Positions 24,469 through 61,167 of a stretch of DNA of 64,000 nt are shown piece after piece. The stretch's first letter is position 1; each line of letters begins with the position of its first letter. Source of the stretch: Rhodospirillales bacterium (lineage in GTDB: Bacteria > Pseudomonadota > Alphaproteobacteria > Rhodospirillales > Casp-alpha2); the NCBI GenBank assembly GCA_018662225.1, contig JABJGO010000066.1, positions 1 to 64,000 of the forward strand. Reading direction: 5' to 3'. Both the position numbers and the translations under genes were made by a program. The notes under the pieces were generated by a model. It was not told where the DNA came from and did not search any database. It saw only the letters and a list, made by a program, of their open reading frames with translations.

Positions 24469-24595
24469 CAAAGGCCTCCAAATTACGTTGCGCCGTTGGA
24501 CTCTATTATTCGCCGGGGACTATAGCGATAGATTTGGGTGAGTAAACCGCTCCGGTCAAGGGCCCCACACAATAAACCGGTAAGATGTCGTTAGA

Positions 24596-24608
24596 CTCAT
24601 AGCGTGAG
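24596..24608 (+). repeat. CTCATA-N-TGAG palindromic repeat, locus 1
   Basis: CTCATAGCGTGAG, inside GACTCATAGCGTGAGAA, matches the 13-bp geometry of copies at 27775-27830 (three) and 57678-57690. It lies 128 bp from the hslV start, in gene-free DNA spanning 24469-24893. That gap also contains the long inverted repeat at 24631-24661; short frames within it have no ribosome-binding site or recognisable domain. Confidence 0.6.
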
Positions 24609-24630
24609 AATTAAAAGTCAATTTATCTGG

Positions 24631-24661
24631 CATATTATGCATCGCGTTGATGCATAATATG
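24631..24661. repeat. Perfect 13-bp inverted repeat
   Basis: CATATTATGCATC (24631-24643) and GATGCATAATATG (24649-24661) are exact complements around a 5-nt spacer (GCGTT). AT-rich, with no T-tract, it is a poor terminator; it may be a protein-binding site or a remnant of a mobile element end. Confidence 0.75.
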
Positions 24662-24893
24662 AGACAGTTACAATTCACAGAATGAGAATAACCCGCATTT
24701 TGGACGCATATAATGAGAGTTTGTAGTGTGCTGAGACGGACTGGATTTGACGCCATAGATGGCGCTACAGATAATGCCTGCCCTCGGGCGCAAAGCGGGC
24801 ATGTTCTCATGACAGCTGAAATATCTGCAACTGACCCTGAACGGACGTTCAACTCGACAACTGCGAGATGTCCGCAATCAAATGATCATCAAT

Positions 24894-25412
24894 TTAGCGA
24901 ACGGGACTCTTGAGAAACTCGATAATATCTGAGATGTCCTTTGCGTCCATCGACCACCGAGGCATACCCTGGTCAAGCGGGTCTCCGTCCGGGTCAACAC
25001 CTTTGGTGATGGCTTGCAACAAGGTAGCATCATCGTATTTTTCATGGCCCCCATGATTATCTTCTTCAGATATTCCGTTGTGACTGTCAAACAAGGCAGA
25101 CGGTGTCAAAGGTGGGGCGATCTTCCAGAATCGCGGCATAAGCCGCCCTCCTTGTCGGTCAATTCCATGACATGTGACGCAACTGCCATTGTGCATCTGC
25201 ATATGCATTCCACCACCGTTAGCACTAATCGAAACGCCGGATGAGTTGATGCCAGTAAAATAAATTCGCTCGCCATTACTCTGAAACTGATCCGGCCAGT
25301 CTTCTCGGTCTGCACTCACACCAAAACCGAGCAAAGGCACTCCTCCAAAGATTGCAACGACAACAATCAAGGAAATACCGCCTAATACAGTCCTAGTTTT
25401 GTTTGGGTTCAT
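24894..25412 (-). CDS. Membrane-anchored c-type cytochrome with Met/His-rich segment
   Basis: The 172-residue protein has an N-terminal TM anchor (about 9-30) and a periplasmic domain with one haem motif, CVTCH (78-82). Just before it is the Met/His-rich MHMQMHNGSC; after it come RFWKIAPPLTPSAL and a His-rich loop (HNGISEEDNHGGHE). Met150 or Met155 in MPRWSM is the likely distal ligand. It is probably an electron carrier facing the periplasm. ATG 25412 is chosen because it precedes a clean signal anchor. The gene is divergent from a second cytochrome gene, sharing a 206-bp intergenic region with an FNR-like site. The Met/His residues suggest copper or other metal contact, which is inference. 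Confidence 0.82.
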   Translation of the reverse strand: MNPNKTRTVLGGISLIVVVAIFGGVPLLGFGVSADREDWPDQFQSNGERIYFTGINSSGVSISANGGGMHMQMHNGSCVTCHGIDRQGGRLMPRFWKIAPPLTPSALFDSHNGISEEDNHGGHEKYDDATLLQAITKGVDPDGDPLDQGMPRWSMDAKDISDIIEFLKSPVR

Positions 25413-25546
25413 CGATGGCCTCGGATTGCAATTTAGATATTGTGCAACGCAACATAATATCACTGACAGTCATCGTCAAATTAATCCGCTTACCCACTTA
25501 AAACACTGTCCTCTAACTGAATCTTGCCCCTCAGACGGCATCAGAT

Positions 25547-25560
25547 TTGATCAAGGTCAA
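25547..25560. promoter_or_regulatory. FNR/FixK-type binding site
   Basis: TTGATCAAGGTCAA matches TTGAT-N4-ATCAA at nine of ten fixed positions. It lies 58 bp before the start of the cytochrome gene at 25619 and 134 bp before the divergent cytochrome gene, fitting activation by an oxygen-sensing CRP/FNR-family regulator. The regulator is not in the window. Confidence 0.65.
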
Positions 25561-25618
25561 TGCCGCAATGCGAAGATTCGCGTAAGGTCGTGTGCAGAAT
25601 ACAGGAAAGGCAAAGATC

Positions 25619-26206
25619 ATGAAAGCCAAGAGAAGTTTTTGGCGAACGGTCACCGCCCTGGTTTCCGCAGCTGTAATTGCCGGTTGGGCCACAGGGGCCG
25701 AGGCTGATGCATCAGATTCCCACGGCCATCAAGAAGACGGGGCAACCACGCCGATGGATGGGGGCATGATGTCAAACCGCCTCTCAATCCCTCAGATGAA
25801 CCCCGATATCGGCAAGAGGTTGTTCATCGATAAGGGTTGTGTCGCTTGCCACGCCGTCAACGGTGTCGGCGGACACGATGCCGCAAATTTGGACGCCCAT
25901 ACCATGAATACCGTAATGAACCCGTTCGAGTTCGCTGCCCGGATGTGGAACCACGCGGGCATTATGATTCCTCTGCAAGAGGAAGCGATCGGTGAACAGA
26001 TCACATTTACCGGCGATGAGCTCGCCAACATTATCGCCTTTGTCCACAATGATGAAGTTCAACACTCATTCATGGAAGGTGACTTAACGCCGAATGCCCG
26101 GCAAATGATGAATCACAGCCACGGTGATGATTCGATGGAAATGATGCATGCCGATGAATTAGGTCATGGACACGATGACGGCGAGGATACCCACGAACCT
26201 GAATAA
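25619..26206 (+). CDS. Secreted single-haem c-type cytochrome with His/Met-rich tail
   Basis: The 195-residue protein has a signal peptide (about 1-30, cleavage after ATGAEA) and one haem motif, CVACH (74-78), in a class I-like domain with GDELANIIAFVHNDE as its last helix. Before the haem is a DSHGHQEDG/MDGGMM stretch and the C-terminus (about 165-195) is rich in His, Met and Asp. AGGAAAGG precedes ATG 25619. It is probably periplasmic and, with its divergent neighbour and the following beta-barrel gene, forms an electron-transfer or metal-handling unit. An FNR-like site 58 bp upstream suggests induction at low oxygen. Confidence 0.85.
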   Translation: MKAKRSFWRTVTALVSAAVIAGWATGAEADASDSHGHQEDGATTPMDGGMMSNRLSIPQMNPDIGKRLFIDKGCVACHAVNGVGGHDAANLDAHTMNTVMNPFEFAARMWNHAGIMIPLQEEAIGEQITFTGDELANIIAFVHNDEVQHSFMEGDLTPNARQMMNHSHGDDSMEMMHADELGHGHDDGEDTHEPE

Positions 26207-26307
26207 CGTCATTCGGTTCAGCGGGACCATGCAAGTGGCTTTCGTCCTGCTTGGAATATATGCAATCCGTTGAGCTGACCGACTCGCCCCTTATTAGAGG
26301 AAGATAC

Positions 26308-27489
26308 ATGCGACCAATATATTGTTTTAAGCGAATGAATAGCCTGCATGCCGCTCTCGGCAGCCTCACCGTATTGGTCGGGGTATCGATGTCAGATACG
26401 ACATATGCAAGTTTTCACGCTATAGATGGCCTTGATCCAACAATCTCGGAATCGCTTTTCACGGCGAGAATGATGCCCGCCAATGAAATAGCGACCATGG
26501 ACATGGACGAAGCTGTTAACGGATCCGCCATGTCGTCGGATAGCAACATGGGCAACATGATGCGCCCGGCCATGATACCGCCACCGGGAATTTCGGGTGC
26601 CAGCATTCCACCAGAAGGCAAGCTCATGCTGTCGTTCTCCAGCACCTACATGAAGATGCAGGGCAACAGGTCCGGTACAAGCAGTGTTTCGCAAGATCAG
26701 GTGCTCAATGATTTCATGGTGGCGCCCCTGCGCATGGACGTGGGAATGGTAATGGGGATGGCCATGTATGGCATCACCGATGAATGGGCCGTGACAGGCG
26801 GGGCCTCATACATTCGTAAGTCCATGGATCATGTAAACCGGGGAGGCACGAAGTTCACGACCCGCTCCGAAGGTATTGGTGACCCCAAGATCGGAACGGC
26901 CTACAAGCTTTACCAATCTAGTTCTAATTCCTTACTGGCTGGACTCGCCCTCAATATTCCACTTGGCAGCATCGAGGAAAAGGACAACACCCCTGCCGAT
27001 CTGACCGCTAACAATCCGTTGCCATATCCCATGCAGTTGGGTTCCGGCACCTGGGACTTCACGCCGAGCATGTCCTATATGGGAACGATCCAAGATTACA
27101 CGTGGGGAATGCAGGCTGTCGCCACACTGCGGCCAGGGCGCAACAACAATGGATACCGCCTTGGTAATACCTCTGAGATATCGTTTTGGGGTTCGCGCGA
27201 TCTCGCCGATTGGGTTGCTGTGTTCGGGCGCGTGCAAGGGAAAGTCGTCGGTAATATTGATGGTCGGGATTCGCAGATTAGTACAACAATGGCTCCCACG
27301 GGTGATCCCAATCGCCGGGGACAGCGAGTCGTAAATCTCTCTGTGGGATTGAATTCATCAATTTCATCGGGGCCACTGGGCGGCGGCAAGGTGGCTATTG
27401 AAGCGACTGTCCCGGTCTATCAAAACCTGGACGGGCCGCAACTGGAAACGGACTTCGCCGTAACAGCGAAGGTAAGTTTAGTCTTTTAA
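26308..27489 (+). CDS. Outer-membrane beta-barrel protein (transporter-like)
   Basis: The 393-residue protein begins with an export signal (about 1-36), then a Met/Ser/Pro-rich segment (SNMGNMMRPAMIPPPGISG), then a beta-rich domain of alternating hydrophobic residues (about 105-393) ending in F (VTAKVSLVF), as outer-membrane barrels do. The segment MGMAMYGITDEWAVTGGASY recalls barrel proteins annotated as MetA-pathway/phenol-degradation transporters (COG4313-like); this is a tentative family call. ATG 26308 has AGAGGAAG just upstream. It follows the cytochrome gene by 101 bp on the same strand. Gene-free DNA follows to 27950, with repeats at 27661-27830. Confidence 0.7.
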   Translation: MRPIYCFKRMNSLHAALGSLTVLVGVSMSDTTYASFHAIDGLDPTISESLFTARMMPANEIATMDMDEAVNGSAMSSDSNMGNMMRPAMIPPPGISGASIPPEGKLMLSFSSTYMKMQGNRSGTSSVSQDQVLNDFMVAPLRMDVGMVMGMAMYGITDEWAVTGGASYIRKSMDHVNRGGTKFTTRSEGIGDPKIGTAYKLYQSSSNSLLAGLALNIPLGSIEEKDNTPADLTANNPLPYPMQLGSGTWDFTPSMSYMGTIQDYTWGMQAVATLRPGRNNNGYRLGNTSEISFWGSRDLADWVAVFGRVQGKVVGNIDGRDSQISTTMAPTGDPNRRGQRVVNLSVGLNSSISSGPLGGGKVAIEATVPVYQNLDGPQLETDFAVTAKVSLVF

Positions 27490-27703
27490 GAATGTATATT
27501 TCATGCCCCCGCAAGCCGCCTTCTTCATGATCGTAGGGATGGACTAGAAGATGCTTTTGTCGAATCCTGACCCCAACGTTATGGGCCGGTACGCCTTGGA
27601 CACCAAATTGGGACAACATCTCCGATAAAATCGTGTCATTAATGCGGCAACGGGGAGAAAGCGGACATGTTTGGGCGTGGAACTCAGCCATTTTGAACTT
27701 CCG

Positions 27704-27715
27704 TTTCTGGCTATT
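27704..27715 (-). repeat. Dispersed AATAGCCAGAA motif, minus-strand copy
   Basis: The minus strand here reads CAATAGCCAGAA then ACGG, sharing the 11-base core AATAGCCAGAA with positions 1-11 and 57768-57778. It is 215 bp beyond the outer-membrane gene and 236 bp before hisB, in non-coding DNA that also contains AGCGGACATG (27660-27669). Confidence 0.4.
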
Positions 27716-27774
27716 GGCGGAGGTGGTTAACGCCTATCAATAATGTCTGTTATTGGAGATGAGGCGGACATGTT

Positions 27775-27830
27775 CTCATGTTATGAGTTCACAATTCTCA
27801 CTATATGAGTCAATTTTCTCATGTTATGAG
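27775..27830 (-). repeat. Three spaced CTCAT-N3-ATGAG palindromes
   Basis: The 13-bp palindromes CTCATGTTATGAG (27775-27787), CTCACTATATGAG (27797-27809) and CTCATGTTATGAG (27818-27830) start 22 and 21 bp apart, that is two helical turns. On the minus strand each reads like GACTCATA-N3-TGAGAA. They sit 121 bp upstream of hisB at the edge of the cytochrome island. Spacing suggests binding sites for one protein on one face of the helix; they could also be mobile repeat debris. Confidence 0.7.
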
Positions 27831-27950
27831 TCAAACCACATAACAAAACCTTCATGCCGGGTAGGGTACTTTGTCTACTGGTTAAACGGGGCGGCACCTG
27901 ATAAAAGGGCCGCGTTATCAAGATAACGACTGCAGAAAGGATCGTATGCC

Positions 27951-57550: not shown

Positions 57551-57677
57551 GGTCACAGGTTTCTCGCGCGATTCAGGGATGATCCACGGGCGCGCCACGG
57601 GTGCCATTGCCCGGCAGAGTTTTGGCGCAAATTTTTCTCATTCTGTTTTTCTGTGTCTCACCTTCTCTGCGGTTTGA

Positions 57678-57690
57678 CTCATAAAATGAG
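57678..57690 (+). repeat. CTCATA-N-TGAG palindromic repeat, locus 3
   Basis: CTCATAAAATGAG, in the context TTTGACTCATAAAATGAGAAAA, has the same 13-bp layout as copies at 24596 and 27775-27830. It lies 128 bp past typA in the 410-bp gene-free stretch 57551-57960, which also contains the 15-bp motif at 57768-57782. Confidence 0.6.
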
Positions 57691-57767
57691 AAAACTGGTG
57701 CCACCAATGCGAATGTCCGAGCCTATCTCAAAACTGTCATAATCCAGAGACGTTAAGAGCCTCCGAG

Positions 57768-57960: not shown

Positions 57961-58131
57961 ATGAATATTTTGCGAATTGTACTCGCCATTTTTTTACCTC
58001 CCGTAGCCGCCTTTCTAACAGTTGGTGTCGGCCTTCATTTCTGGATCAACATTGTTTTGTCTCTGTTGTTTTTCATTCCGGGCGTGGTTCATGCCATTTG
58101 GCTGGTGCTCAAAAGGGCTGAAAATCACTGA
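57961..58131 (+). CDS. YqaE/Pmp3-family small membrane protein
   Basis: This 56-residue protein begins MNILRIVLAIFLPPVAAFLT and has a second TM with FFIPGVVHAIWLVLK. LPPVAAFLTVG and the PGVVHAIW end are hallmarks of the UPF0057/Pmp3 family, found from bacteria to plants, where members help tolerance of salt, cold or membrane depolarisation. It has no obvious strong ribosome-binding site (GGGGTG lies 8-13 bp upstream). It leads an AT-rich row of four small envelope genes running to 59704. Confidence 0.82.
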   Translation: MNILRIVLAIFLPPVAAFLTVGVGLHFWINIVLSLLFFIPGVVHAIWLVLKRAENH

Positions 58132-58167
58132 TTAAAGATCAGTAAAATAATCACAGGAGAATTTTAT

Positions 58168-58497
58168 ATGTTTTTGAAGAAACTAACCGTTCCGCTTTTC
58201 CTCATCGCTTTTGTTTTTGCCGCTTTGGCGGCGCCGATTTCGATCAATTCCGATGGAACGGTAGATTTTGGCAAGAAAGCGTGGGCGGGCACGGACAAAA
58301 AGAAAGATAAGGACAAGAAAGATAAAAAGAAGAAGAAAAAGAAGAATGATGACGACGACGACGACGACAACGATGACAAGAGTTGTACCGGCGATCAGCC
58401 TTGTAACGATGACAACAAGAACCGCAAAGATGACAAAGACGACGACGACGACGATGATGATGATGACGATGATGAGGACGAGGACGATGATAGCTAA
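58168..58497 (+). CDS. Secreted Lys-rich/Asp-rich low-complexity protein
   Basis: The 109-residue product has a signal peptide (about 1-21, LFLIAFVFAALAA), then a short linker, a basic run (DKKKDKDKKDKKKKKKK), a seven-Asp run, a small loop with two cysteines (SCTGDQPCNDDN), and a second acidic run of twelve Asp before DEDEDDDS. AGGAG lies upstream. Such Asp runs bind Ca2+ or other cations and Lys/Asp pairs can self-associate; both are inferences. I recognise no family. The codons within the runs are nearly all GAC, GAT, AAG and AAA, so slippage could vary the lengths. It lies 36 bp after the YqaE-like gene and 52 bp before an OmpA-like gene. Confidence 0.75.
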   Translation: MFLKKLTVPLFLIAFVFAALAAPISINSDGTVDFGKKAWAGTDKKKDKDKKDKKKKKKKNDDDDDDDNDDKSCTGDQPCNDDNKNRKDDKDDDDDDDDDDDDEDEDDDS

Positions 58498-58549
58498 GAA
58501 ACAGTTCGCTTAAAGTCCAATTCAGATATTAAACAAAGGGGAATACATA

Positions 58550-59425
58550 ATGCTAATTCACATGAAAAAACTATCAGGTATATTACTAGCACTACCGATT
58601 TTAGGTGCATGCGCCAACTACGACATGGACACAGTTGGTAATATGGAGATCGACAGTTGGGCGTTTGCTGAATCTCTCCATGGGCAGTATATGCGCATTG
58701 GACGTGACGAGGCCGCAGAGGATGATTGGAAGGATGCGTTATTCTTCCGTGATAAGGCGCGTGAAGCCGCAGAAGCAGCAAACGAAGGTGCCGCTCTCCC
58801 TGAGCCACAGATGGTTGGGGATCGGGATATTCCCGAGGGAGCTTTAGCCGATTTGAATGCCGCCTATGACAGCCTCATGGCCGCACTTAGCGATGGTCGT
58901 CGCACAAAACCGACAGCTGCTGCCATTGCGCAGACCAGTTTTGATTGTTGGTTGCAGGAGCAGGAAGAAGATGTTCAGCCTGATGATATAGCTTTGTGTC
59001 GTGAAGATTTTGAAGATGCCCTCGCCCTGTTGACTAAAGTGGGCGAGCCAATGGTTGCCGCGGCGCCGGAATCTGTTGTGAAGCCTGAGCAGAGAACATT
59101 CGTTGTGTACTTTGACCATAATAGTGCAACCCTTGATGTGCTTGCCAATATGGCTATCCAAAACGCCCTTGAAAGGGCCAAAAGCACTAATCCAAAATTT
59201 GTTCAGGTAGGCGGTCATACCGATACCACCGGTGATCAGGTTTATAACGACGCACTTTCAGATCGTCGTGCCAAAGCTGTTGCGAAGAAACTCATTGAAG
59301 GCGGCTTGATGAAGAAGAACCTGATTCAAACATCGATGTTTGGCGAAAACTTCACCACTGTAAAAACTGGTGATAATGTCAAGAACCGTAGCAATCGTCG
59401 TGTTGAAATCAAACTTAGTTACTAA
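58550..59425 (+). CDS. OmpA-family lipoprotein
   Basis: The 291-residue protein has a signal peptide with lipobox PILGAC, then an alpha-helical, acidic middle region (about 25-170) and a C-terminal OmpA-like peptidoglycan-binding domain (about 183-291) with VVYFDHNSATLD, GHTDTTGDQVYNDALSDRRAKAV and NRSNRRVEIKL. AAAGGGG stands seven bases before ATG 58550; a second ATG four codons later is also possible. It should tie the outer membrane to the cell wall. It sits in the cassette with the Lys/Asp protein and the DUF3012 lipoprotein. Confidence 0.88.
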   Translation: MLIHMKKLSGILLALPILGACANYDMDTVGNMEIDSWAFAESLHGQYMRIGRDEAAEDDWKDALFFRDKAREAAEAANEGAALPEPQMVGDRDIPEGALADLNAAYDSLMAALSDGRRTKPTAAAIAQTSFDCWLQEQEEDVQPDDIALCREDFEDALALLTKVGEPMVAAAPESVVKPEQRTFVVYFDHNSATLDVLANMAIQNALERAKSTNPKFVQVGGHTDTTGDQVYNDALSDRRAKAVAKKLIEGGLMKKNLIQTSMFGENFTTVKTGDNVKNRSNRRVEIKLSY

Positions 59426-59445
59426 ACCAGTATCTCGGTTCCACT

Positions 59446-59482
59446 GAACCAGCATTGATGAAAACTTCATCGATGCTGGTTC
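59446..59482. repeat. Long hairpin between OmpA-like and DUF3012 genes
   Basis: GAACCAGCATTGATGAA (59446-59462) and TTCATCGATGCTGGTTC (59466-59482) pair over 17 bp with one G-T wobble around a 3-nt loop. There is no T-tract, so it is more likely an RNA-stabilising or attenuating structure for the OmpA-like message than a terminator. Confidence 0.7.
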
Positions 59483-59524
59483 AGGTTGAGAATAGAATTA
59501 ATAACACAACGAGAAGACAAGCGA

Positions 59525-59704
59525 ATGGCATTTAACATAAAGAAAATGACGATCCCTCTTTACGGTATTCTGGTCTTTGCCACCCTTGCGGCTTGCTCTC
59601 CGGAAGTTGGATCAAAGGAGTGGTGCGCAGATTTAAAGGATAAGCCTAAGGGTGAATGGTCCGCCAACGAGGCCGCTGATTTTGCAAAGAGTTGTGTCTT
59701 TTAA
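59525..59704 (+). CDS. DUF3012 lipoprotein
   Basis: The 59-residue protein has a signal peptide with lipobox TLAACS and a short mature part, PEVGSKEWCADLKDKPKGEW, ending NEAADFAKSCVF, which matches the DUF3012 pattern (GS-x-WC, KP-KG-W, NE, C-terminal CxF). I start at ATG 59525; an in-frame ATG 13 codons earlier has no ribosome-binding site. Function unknown. It ends the small-envelope-gene cassette; the next 176 bp contain no gene. Confidence 0.8.
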   Translation: MAFNIKKMTIPLYGILVFATLAACSPEVGSKEWCADLKDKPKGEWSANEAADFAKSCVF

Positions 59705-59880
59705 TTAACGATCCCAGATTTCGAATTTTCATCCTGATGTCATAATCCAAATTGGTAAGTATCTTAGACACAGGATCACCAGAAGTGTCCCTTGTGGGCC
59801 AAACCACATTTTCGGCCCCCCTTTGCTGGGTTTGTAAATCAATGCGAGTCTTGCATTACCGAACCGGTTAAACTCTGACC

Positions 59881-61167
59881 ATGCAAAACTGGGTCGGGTC
59901 ATTTTCCGTTTACTTAGACCGCCGGGTGGCGATCTTGCTGGCGTTTGGGTTTGCCAGCGGACTGCCCTTGGCGCTGGTTTATGCCACGTTGTCGGCGTGG
60001 TTGAGTGAGTCCGGCGTTAGCAAGACAGCCATCGGCCTGTTTGTGTGGGCCAGCACCGCCTATACCCTTAAATTCCTGTGGGCACCGTTGGTTGACCGCA
60101 TGCCGCTACCATTTTTGACCAACTGGTTGGGCCAGCGTCGTGGCTGGTTGGTGTTATCGCAAGTTGCCGTGGTTGGTGCCATGGTCGGTTTGGGCAGCTC
60201 GGATCCTGCGTCCAATTTGTGGTGGACGGCCTTGTGGGCGGTTCTGCTGGCCTTTGCCTCGGCCACGCTGGATATCGTGGCCGACGCCTACCGGGTGGAA
60301 AGTCTGGATGAAGAAGAACTTGGGGCGGGCGCCGCGAACTTTGTATTTGGCTACCGCATGGCCATGCTGGTATCAGGCGGTGGCGCGCTGATTATTGCCC
60401 AGTTCGCCGGATGGTTCTGGGCTTATGGGGTCATGGCCGCACTTATGGCGGTGACGATTTTTGCGACACTCGCCAGTCCCGAACCAGATCATCCGGCCCG
60501 TCAGGGCGAGGCCTCTGCCAAGTCTTTAAGCGCGTGGATGGCGGGTGCCGTTGTGGCGCCGTTTGTAAATTTCCTCAAGCGACCGGACTGGTTGCTGATC
60601 CTGTTGTTCGTGGCATTCTATAAATATGGCGATGCGTTGTTGGGCATCATGGCCAATCCTTTCTATCTGGAAATCGGTTTTTCCAAGGCCGAGATCGGCG
60701 TGATCAGCAAATCCTGGGGCATGGTGATGACCATTGTAGGCGCGTTTGCCGGGGGCGTTCTGGTGGCGCGCATGGGCATTCTAAAGGCACTGTTGATTTG
60801 TGGCGTTCTGCAAGCCGCGTCCAATCTGGTGTTCGCCGCCCAAGCCTGGGTCGGTTATTCCGTGCCCATGCTGACCATCACCATCGGCATTGAAAACTTT
60901 ACCGGCGGCATGGCGACCACGGCGTTTGTTGCCTATCTGTCGGGTCTGTGTAATCTGGCTTATACCGCCACACAGTATGCGTTGTTCTCATCATTCATGG
61001 GATTTGCGCGCACTATATTTGCGTCTGGCGGCGGCTGGCTCGCCGATCAGGTGGACTGGGTGAATTATTTCCTCATGACAACAATCGCCGCCCTGCCCGG
61101 TCTTATTCTGCTACTATGGCTCATTCGACGTTATCCACCGGGTGACTTGCATGTGCGAAATACTTGA
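59881..61167 (+). CDS. AmpG-like MFS permease
   Basis: The 428-residue protein has about twelve TM helices. The N-terminal FASGLPLALVYATLSAWLSESGVSKTAIGLF, LKFLWAPLVDRMPLPF and DAYRVESLDEEELGAG are typical of AmpG. AmpG imports anhydro-muropeptides for cell-wall recycling and beta-lactamase control. mltA in this window makes such products, so a working link is plausible. It is 51 bp ahead of ppa in the same orientation. Confidence 0.88.
   Translation: MQNWVGSFSVYLDRRVAILLAFGFASGLPLALVYATLSAWLSESGVSKTAIGLFVWASTAYTLKFLWAPLVDRMPLPFLTNWLGQRRGWLVLSQVAVVGAMVGLGSSDPASNLWWTALWAVLLAFASATLDIVADAYRVESLDEEELGAGAANFVFGYRMAMLVSGGGALIIAQFAGWFWAYGVMAALMAVTIFATLASPEPDHPARQGEASAKSLSAWMAGAVVAPFVNFLKRPDWLLILLFVAFYKYGDALLGIMANPFYLEIGFSKAEIGVISKSWGMVMTIVGAFAGGVLVARMGILKALLICGVLQAASNLVFAAQAWVGYSVPMLTITIGIENFTGGMATTAFVAYLSGLCNLAYTATQYALFSSFMGFARTIFASGGGWLADQVDWVNYFLMTTIAALPGLILLLWLIRRYPPGDLHVRNT

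Follow-up and report, generated by a model that had tools for sequence, protein, structure and literature searches.

A probable mobile cassette carrying two single-haem cytochromes and a Met-rich outer-membrane barrel, possibly for copper handling, between hslV and hisB of a Rhodospirillales bacterium

In the genome of a Rhodospirillales bacterium (assembly GCA_018662225.1), the first 64,000 nucleotides of contig JABJGO010000066.1 were analysed, and this whole stretch is called the window in the following. The window contains an insertion of 3,255 bp in the gap between hslV and hisB. The insertion carries three genes, coding for two single-haem cytochromes c, here designated cytA and cytB, and for a Met-rich outer-membrane barrel, and it is bounded by repeated ends which are also present around other genes of the same assembly. 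It is likely a mobile cassette. The modelled barrel has the fold of known outer-membrane channels, its family is marked by conserved Met columns, and copper genes are found near some of its relatives, so that copper is the probable business of the module. The explanation as a whole, namely that a non-autonomous mobile cassette brought a three-gene copper-handling envelope module into the hslV-hisB gap, is put forward tentatively, as a possibility with nearly as much for it as against it.

The insertion between hslV and hisB and its ends

The insertion extends from position 24586 to 27840. In the window, 3,480 bp separate the starts of hslV and hisB, as compared to 253 bp in a congener. In 26 of 29 loci from relatives the distance is 164-576 bp, taken from tblastn starts with an error of up to about 30 bp. 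Subtraction of the insertion leaves 225 bp, which is consistent with the spacing in the relatives. In the other three loci hslV was not seen in the DNA compared, which a contig end explains in one case. Among the relatives checked, this one site is occupied only in the window. The guanine plus cytosine content of the insertion is 0.504, compared to 0.552 outside, and a content this low was found in 3.8% of overlapping outside segments of the same size. The first-pass annotation had described an accessory island at 24894-27489, between two genes which are close together in many relatives. The spacing bears out the latter point, and the insertion with its mobile-element-like ends strongly supports an island; the genes assigned to it stand, while its bounds have to be widened to 24586-27840 to take in these ends. 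The features are as follows.

24586-24830, + strand: left cassette end with a terminal inverted repeat (TIR), TGTCGTTAGACTCATAGCGTGAGAATT, and sub-terminal repeats; 85% identity over 203 bp to the left end of the element on contig C27
24894-25412, - strand: cytA, membrane-anchored single-haem cytochrome c of 172 amino acids; PF00034 over the cut-off, haem site CVTCH
25413-25618, no strand: intergenic region of 206 bp between the divergent genes cytA and cytB
25619-26206, + strand: cytB, single-haem cytochrome c of 195 amino acids with an apparent signal peptide; PF00034 over the cut-off, haem site CVACH
26207-26307, + strand: gap between cytB and the barrel gene; by reading, a single open reading frame (ORF) of 13 amino acids
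26308-27489, + strand: Met-rich outer-membrane barrel of 393 amino acids with the COG4313/FapF fold, from an AlphaFold model and fold matches
27640-27840, + strand: right cassette end with three (G/A)ACTCATAnnnTGAGAA repeats in inward reading; 81% identity over 105 bp to the right end of the C27 element
27815-27840, - strand: right-end TIR, matching the TIR pattern with one mismatch

The starts given here, ATG at 25412 for cytA, at 25619 for cytB and at 26308 for the barrel, were preferred over those of the mechanical ORFs. The region at 25413-25618 presumably holds the promoters for cytA and for cytB with the barrel gene. In a scan of the whole stretch, eight promoter-like sites were identified as compared to 4.7 +/- 2.3 in shuffles, which is not significant, and two terminator-like sites as compared to 2.8 +/- 1.7. 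A tRNA scan and a search of Rfam at the gathering threshold gave no match in the window.

Repeat analysis revealed related repeats on both sides of the three genes. The left-end TIR fits the TIR pattern with two mismatches, and no match was found in 100 shuffles. By searching the bacterium's own assembly with both flanks of the window's cassette, further copies were identified. The consensus of six complete left ends is TGT(C/G)(G/C)(T/C)T(T/A)GACnC(A/G)TAnCGTGA(G/A)AAT, and the right ends, in inward reading, start with TGTnnTTTGACTCA, followed by one or two extra GACnCATAnnnTGAGAA-like repeats. The element on C27 (locus L202) has a length of 1,762 bp and both ends of the window type, with genes for an ArsR-type helix-turn-helix protein and an alpha/beta hydrolase as cargo. 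Contigs C71 (L203) and C49 (L204) carry left and right ends in the same orientation, one TIR being cut at a contig end. On C35 (L213), a TIR pair spans 3,129 bp with genes for an FMN/FAD oxidoreductase of 661 amino acids and a protein of 141 amino acids; its right end is similar to those of C49 and C71 (72-75%), and its left end resembles the others in the TIR alone, not in the inner part. The cargo of these four elements is unrelated, and two of the cargo proteins have no Pfam match. The window's ends are 79-85% identical to those of other copies. The copies on C28 and C1 have 141 bp in common at 99% identity in spite of different flanks, which implies that some members of the family moved recently.

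Among six cargo ORFs tested, no transposase match was obtained, and three of them matched nothing. IstB (PF01695), the sole transposase family searched for in the assembly, gave one match, an ORF of 488 amino acids on C32, which is probably DnaA. The assembly consists of 103 contigs, several of which end within cassette repeats. Candidate target-site duplications are TAAGA/TAACA for the window, CTTAA/CCTAA for C27 and CTAAG/TTAAC for C35. An exact search of viral contigs with the TIR pattern gave no match. The plasmid collection gave three weak matches (E about 7), all to one right end; at the two inspected by eye there was no IS21-type transposase, and an IS5-like fragment was present near one. 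In their look the ends resemble those of IS21-type elements, a likeness with no transposase match behind it.

The inverted-repeat ends, the same ends around other genes and the lack of a transposase make the element resemble a mobile insertion cassette. The terms mobile insertion cassette and transporter insertion sequence are found in excerpts of PMC3129680 and PMC3281130, and the window's element shares inverted-repeat ends, passenger genes and the absence of a transposase with these elements. However, it differs from them in that no cognate insertion sequence was identified. Repeated cassettes of this kind would illustrate how small groups of genes can change place in a chromosome although they lack their own transposase.

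Another terminal repeat of the cassette type is located at 57668-57693 of the window (two mismatches), directly past a typA-like gene named by eye. Beyond it, a low-GC stretch at about 58,000-60,000 contains a short ORF, an acidic ORF of 109 amino acids and a gene for an OmpA-domain protein. No partner for this repeat was found in the window within three mismatches.

The cytochromes and the barrel

Both cytochromes score over the curated cut-off of 21.3 bits for Pfam Cytochrom_C (PF00034), with 27.5 bits for cytA and 29.7 bits for cytB, and each contains one CxxCH. The earlier description of two divergent single-haem cytochromes is in agreement with this. It had also assigned Met/His-rich segments to both, which is confirmed by the composition of the mechanical ORFs (15 Met and 14 His in 204 amino acids for cytB, 7 Met and 6 His in 189 for cytA) and by the segment GGGMHMQM in cytA, which lies directly ahead of the haem site and is invariant in four of four aligned sequences. 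By eye, the N-terminus of cytA is a hydrophobic anchor and that of cytB a signal peptide. In an alignment of ten cytB sequences the haem domain is conserved, and the Met/His-rich N- and C-terminal segments are variable. Candidate distal ligands are the conserved residues M150, invariant in cytA, and M109 and M116 in cytB; in cytA, MPRW is the candidate motif for this ligand. In a sequence search of the PDB, cytA gave best E values of 0.28 and 0.92, and cytB matched other cytochromes at the haem site and, weakly, a copper chaperone (best 8.6e-6).

The AlphaFold model of the barrel protein is a well-predicted barrel with a mean predicted local distance difference test (pLDDT) score of 82.6, mostly above 90 over residues 100-393 and below 50 over residues 1-79. 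A lumen-occluding N-terminal segment characterises the COG4313 channels; in the model, any such segment would fall in the low-scoring first 79 residues. Fold comparison by VIA-align gave as best matches the COG4313 channel 4rl8 (Z 25.4) and FapF 5o65 (Z 24.4), with matches extending over 254 residues. DSSP assigned 13 strand segments, one of them of three residues and the last of a length that would allow a hairpin, so that 12 or 13 strands can be counted; it is because of the fold matches that the barrel is termed 12-stranded, like the COG4313/PF13557 channels and FapF. It scores 18.9 bits against PF13557 (Phenol_MetA_deg), under the cut-off of 22, and is accordingly classed by its modelled fold as COG4313-like but kept out of PF13557 on account of its score. 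Besides this score, it differs from these proteins in a sequence identity of just 11-15%, in conserved Met columns and in copper-related neighbourhoods. In the PDB sequence search the best match was FapF with an E value of 0.11. With 28 Met in the 412 amino acids of its mechanical ORF and the modelled fold, the protein is the Met-rich beta-barrel that had been predicted from the sequence, in spite of its low PF13557 score.

A scan of genome contigs identified at least 517 relatives of the barrel among at least 588 matched stretches, spread over many phyla, and 80 loci were kept (E <= 1e-4). Among 49 aligned barrels, Met is conserved at 85% or more in 11 columns, nine of which are retained in the window's barrel. 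Every consensus Met of model strands 1-3 is at an odd position and thus on one face of the strand. The opposite face of strands 1 and 3 is more hydrophobic, which suggests that in these strands the Met residues may point into the lumen.

In public records, some relatives of the barrel (plasmid matches H5, H6 and H8) are labelled 'alpha-amylase', an apparent misannotation, and 'transporter' is also used. On a Methylosinus plasmid (L011:6744-8960), a protein of 738 amino acids consists of an outer-membrane-like domain, a His/Gly-rich linker and the barrel, with feoB directly downstream.

Distribution of the genes and their copper context

Of 297 genomes of the order, 42 have a cytB-like gene, nine have the barrel and five have cytA (E <= 1e-15). 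All three are present together in two genomes, the window's own and G013. In G013 the contig begins within cytA, and the end of cytA, a cytB remnant and the barrel gene are on one strand. The remnant ends ahead of the haem site and has its start out of frame; an intact cytB is located elsewhere in the genome. The two barrels are 72% identical. The hslV-hisB gap of G013 is normal (204 bp), and end repeats were not found on the G013 contigs searched. Among the 80 kept barrel loci, one has cytA and cytB, apparently on the same G013 contig, and the triple was not found in the other 79. The first-pass annotation had reckoned with genes that never co-occur elsewhere; this was narrowly escaped through the one other genome, in which, however, the cytB beside the barrel is truncated. 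In four of the five cytA genomes cytB is present (hypergeometric 0.0016, uncorrected for kinship), and in G009 the two are tandem neighbours, which makes the link between cytA and cytB firmer than the triple.

In a tree of the barrels, obtained by a quick search with long branches and with support from the SH-like approximate likelihood-ratio test (SH-aLRT) only, the barrels of the window and of G013 join eight from Ruegeria and Pseudoruegeria (SH-aLRT 97). On three Ruegeria plasmids the barrel gene adjoins ccmF, dsbE, ccmH, ccmI and a DsbD-like gene, and DUF2933 is also among the neighbours. The plasmid of Ruegeria B32 (62 kb) carries the barrel together with CueR, two P-type ATPases, a multicopper oxidase, a cytB homologue and another five genes with a cytochrome c annotation. 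For the other two plasmids of Ruegeria a copper context was rejected, as no copper gene is present in the barrel flanks.

Homologues of cytB are located among copper genes on all four plasmids examined (Ruegeria B32, Nitratireductor, Celeribacter and Roseovarius) of the nine with a match. In G015 a cytB homologue is 1.1 kb from a copper-translocating ATPase scoring over the cut-off, and in the window's own genome a cytB paralogue on C55 (L033:6853-10183) is about 280 bp from, and convergent with, a PF09948 'copper chaperone' gene. A DUF1326 gene is also present near this paralogue. At several cytB loci, neighbouring genes were named by eye unless they were profile-scanned; among 14 chromosomal cytB loci of the order, one has RegB-RegA and one a MerR-type regulator. 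RegB/RegA genes scoring over the cut-off are located upstream of cytB in G009 (L032:7306-10719) and in G213 (L135:6163-10224), the latter with one ORF in between; the two genomes belong to two families of the order. A RegBA link was rejected for the window, whose own genome gave a generic receiver as the best RegA match (E 1.9e-14, 31% identity).

For the barrel family, a census covered 133 of the 150 ORFs near a barrel and another 133 drawn at random from 236 far ORFs, in which ORFs of more than 600 amino acids or containing X were left out and the Ruegeria and Crocosphaera groups were each represented by a single locus. Among the near ORFs, Pfam identified three SCO, two multicopper oxidase (both from close relatives, L076 and L077), two CusF and eight histidine-kinase domains (seven PilS-like membrane parts); none of these names is among the 25 families, those matched most often, that are listed for the far ORFs. 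In G017 a PCu(A)C gene adjoins the barrel. Three RegA-like regulators beside barrels score 188-200 bits, under the RegA cut-off of 250, and a receiver cluster near barrels (21 groups) was obtained by single linkage and includes generic receivers.

Upstream of barrels, small exported Cys-containing ORFs were identified, the C-termini of which contain RAPP, RGPP or RSPP (examples are seen at L079, L105, L113 and L123). The rule applied to them required [RK]xPP in the last residues together with CxC, CxxC, CxxxC or CC. Such an ORF is present within 450 bp upstream of 10 of 74 barrel genes and of 4 of 527 control genes (Fisher 3e-7, a post hoc value since the rule was fixed after some examples had been seen); the [RK]xPP end alone is found in 14 of 74 and 13 of 527. 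Six of the 80 loci, those with less than 400 bp upstream, were dropped, all others were counted, several leaderless Ruegeria and Crocosphaera loci among them, and the controls were mechanical ORFs of at least 250 amino acids from the same loci. DUF2946 was rejected as a name for these leaders, as it was matched in 2 of 18 (E <= 0.1); for the leader in G017, Pfam gave nothing at E <= 0.001. No leader was found in the examined loci of the clade of the window's barrel.

The leaders resemble those of the CruR and CutF operons in being exported, Cys-containing, a short distance upstream and ending in RxPP. According to the part of PMC9426467 drawn on here, copper bound to the CxxC of Bordetella CruR relieves the arrest at RAPP, and the TonB-dependent transporter is shut off; according to the part of PMC9973294 drawn on, CutF of Rhodobacter capsulatus responds to copper with the opposite sign. 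The presence of a leader therefore leaves the direction of copper unfixed. CruR is followed by a TonB-dependent transporter and CutF by CutO, whereas the gene downstream of the leader in the barrel relatives codes for a TonB-independent barrel, and the window's barrel differs from these operons in having no leader at all. The first-pass annotation had suggested that metal might cross the envelope by way of these genes; neighbourhoods, leaders and Met columns support this for copper, as a putative role of the family.

Proposed role of the module and its alternatives

In the proposed explanation, a transposase-less cassette with inverted-repeat ends would have inserted between hslV and hisB. The barrel would form a Met-lined outer-membrane pore for copper or a copper complex, and both single-haem cytochromes would act at the periplasmic face. 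There, the soluble, Met/His-rich cytB might bind copper and oxidise or reduce it, and might hand electrons via the membrane-anchored cytA to the respiratory chain, by which periplasmic copper would be kept in a less toxic state. Tolerance rather than uptake, combined with an electron hand-off from copper to cytB to cytA, is the more doubtful part of this proposal, although for the window's clade tolerance is considered more likely than acquisition.

Several observations weigh against this explanation. Just two of the 297 genomes have the triple, with a truncated cytB in G013. The cassette contains no recognised copper gene and, with the 13-residue ORF in the cytB-barrel gap, no leader. The window's barrel is without M96 and M165, and of the four widely conserved His it retains one, H99, H101 and H148 being lost. 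Copper genes are beside the Ruegeria barrel on one plasmid only, the other two having been read at the flanks only. By eye, an obvious copper gene is present at none of the 14 chromosomal cytB loci, and the MerR-type regulator in G005, which is nearest to CueR, remains under the cut-off (124 as compared to 147 bits). For cytA, there is one weak plasmid match (Indioceanicola) and no copper-island example. A transposase search covering the IstB family revealed no autonomous element bounded by such ends, and the target-site duplications are not clean, as in TAAGA/TAACA. The CruR-like leaders, SCO and PCu(A)C of the family suit uptake at least as well as tolerance.

This last point leads to a copper acquisition module, in which the barrel would admit scarce copper and the cytochromes would either provide Cu(I) by reduction of Cu(II) or serve the cuproenzyme being supplied, a terminal oxidase. 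The RxPP and Cys leaders of the family resemble CruR, the operon of which shuts off with copper in the cited part of PMC9426467; PCu(A)C and SCO are neighbours in the barrel family, and redox regulators are present as RegB/RegA near cytB and as more distant relatives near barrels. However, the window's clade is leaderless in the examined loci and has lost conserved His, which two aligned Ruegeria barrels likewise lack at 99, 101 and 148; the barrel of one Ruegeria relative is on a copper-resistance plasmid; and CutF, with its opposite sign (PMC9973294, in part), deprives the leader of a direction. Acquisition is considered unlikely here.

The copper-resistance islands on plasmids of roseobacters and Nitratireductor, with CopA, CueR, multicopper oxidase and cytochromes, in some cases with a ccm set, are among the closest known systems, with cytB homologues in them. 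Copper islands are also described for vent-plume isolates (PMC12016528). The window's cassette differs from them in having three genes only, and no cytA was found in the islands. According to the cited part of PMC12914433, few copper-specific outer-membrane transporters are known, all in the TonB-dependent superfamily. A TonB-dependent copper transporter of the OprC/CrtA type has a plug and a 22-stranded receptor domain. The window's barrel has neither: no TonB family was matched at E <= 1, and its strands are far fewer than 22. A non-TonB barrel family as widespread as this one, with its conserved Met columns and with CruR/CutF-like leaders in some members, would be a candidate copper transporter open to direct test. 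A wider proposal, rather unlikely in all its parts together, places the barrel in a so far undescribed family of Met-lined copper channels of the outer membrane, which would span phyla, work without TonB and be controlled in part by leaders that sense copper as nascent peptides; the window's branch would have lost the leader and some metal ligands, gained two cytochromes and come to move as a transposase-less cassette that couples copper flux to respiratory electron flow. A literature search, outside of which most subscription papers remained, gave no title or abstract on this barrel, gene set or cassette type.

It is improbable that the barrel is a COG4313-type channel for a hydrophobic compound, with cytochromes that serve an unrelated periplasmic dehydrogenase and copper neighbours that are incidental. 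The best fold matches (4rl8 and FapF, with the Z values given above) would suit such a channel, and the cited part of PMC4493636 argues that COG4313 channels take hydrophobic substrates. However, the Met columns are kept over many phyla, copper genes and leaders are enriched, and the cassette contains no gene for aromatic degradation or a dehydrogenase. Known COG4313/FapF members act on hydrophobic molecules (PMC4493636, in part) or amyloid, unlike the copper context here. The first-pass annotation had also considered that the barrel might belong to an unrelated known pathway; its fold is that of COG4313, but its neighbourhoods indicate copper and not aromatic degradation.

More improbable still is that these are passenger genes without a current selected function in a decaying cassette copy. 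The ends in the window are just 79-85% identical to other copies, cytB is truncated in G013 and the distribution is patchy, yet all three ORFs of the window are intact, and its barrel and that of G013 are 72% identical.

An electron conduit across the outer membrane, as in the Mtr/Pio porin-cytochrome systems, has a very low probability. It would account for cytochromes and an outer-membrane barrel at one locus and had been implied by the initial suggestion that the set could move electrons across the envelope. In MtrAB, the barrel is large enough for a multihaem wire. A conduit of this type has a multihaem cytochrome in a large barrel, whereas the window's set has neither: each cytochrome contains one CxxCH, and a barrel of about 12 strands is too small for such a wire, which disfavours the electron route as an outer-membrane conduit.

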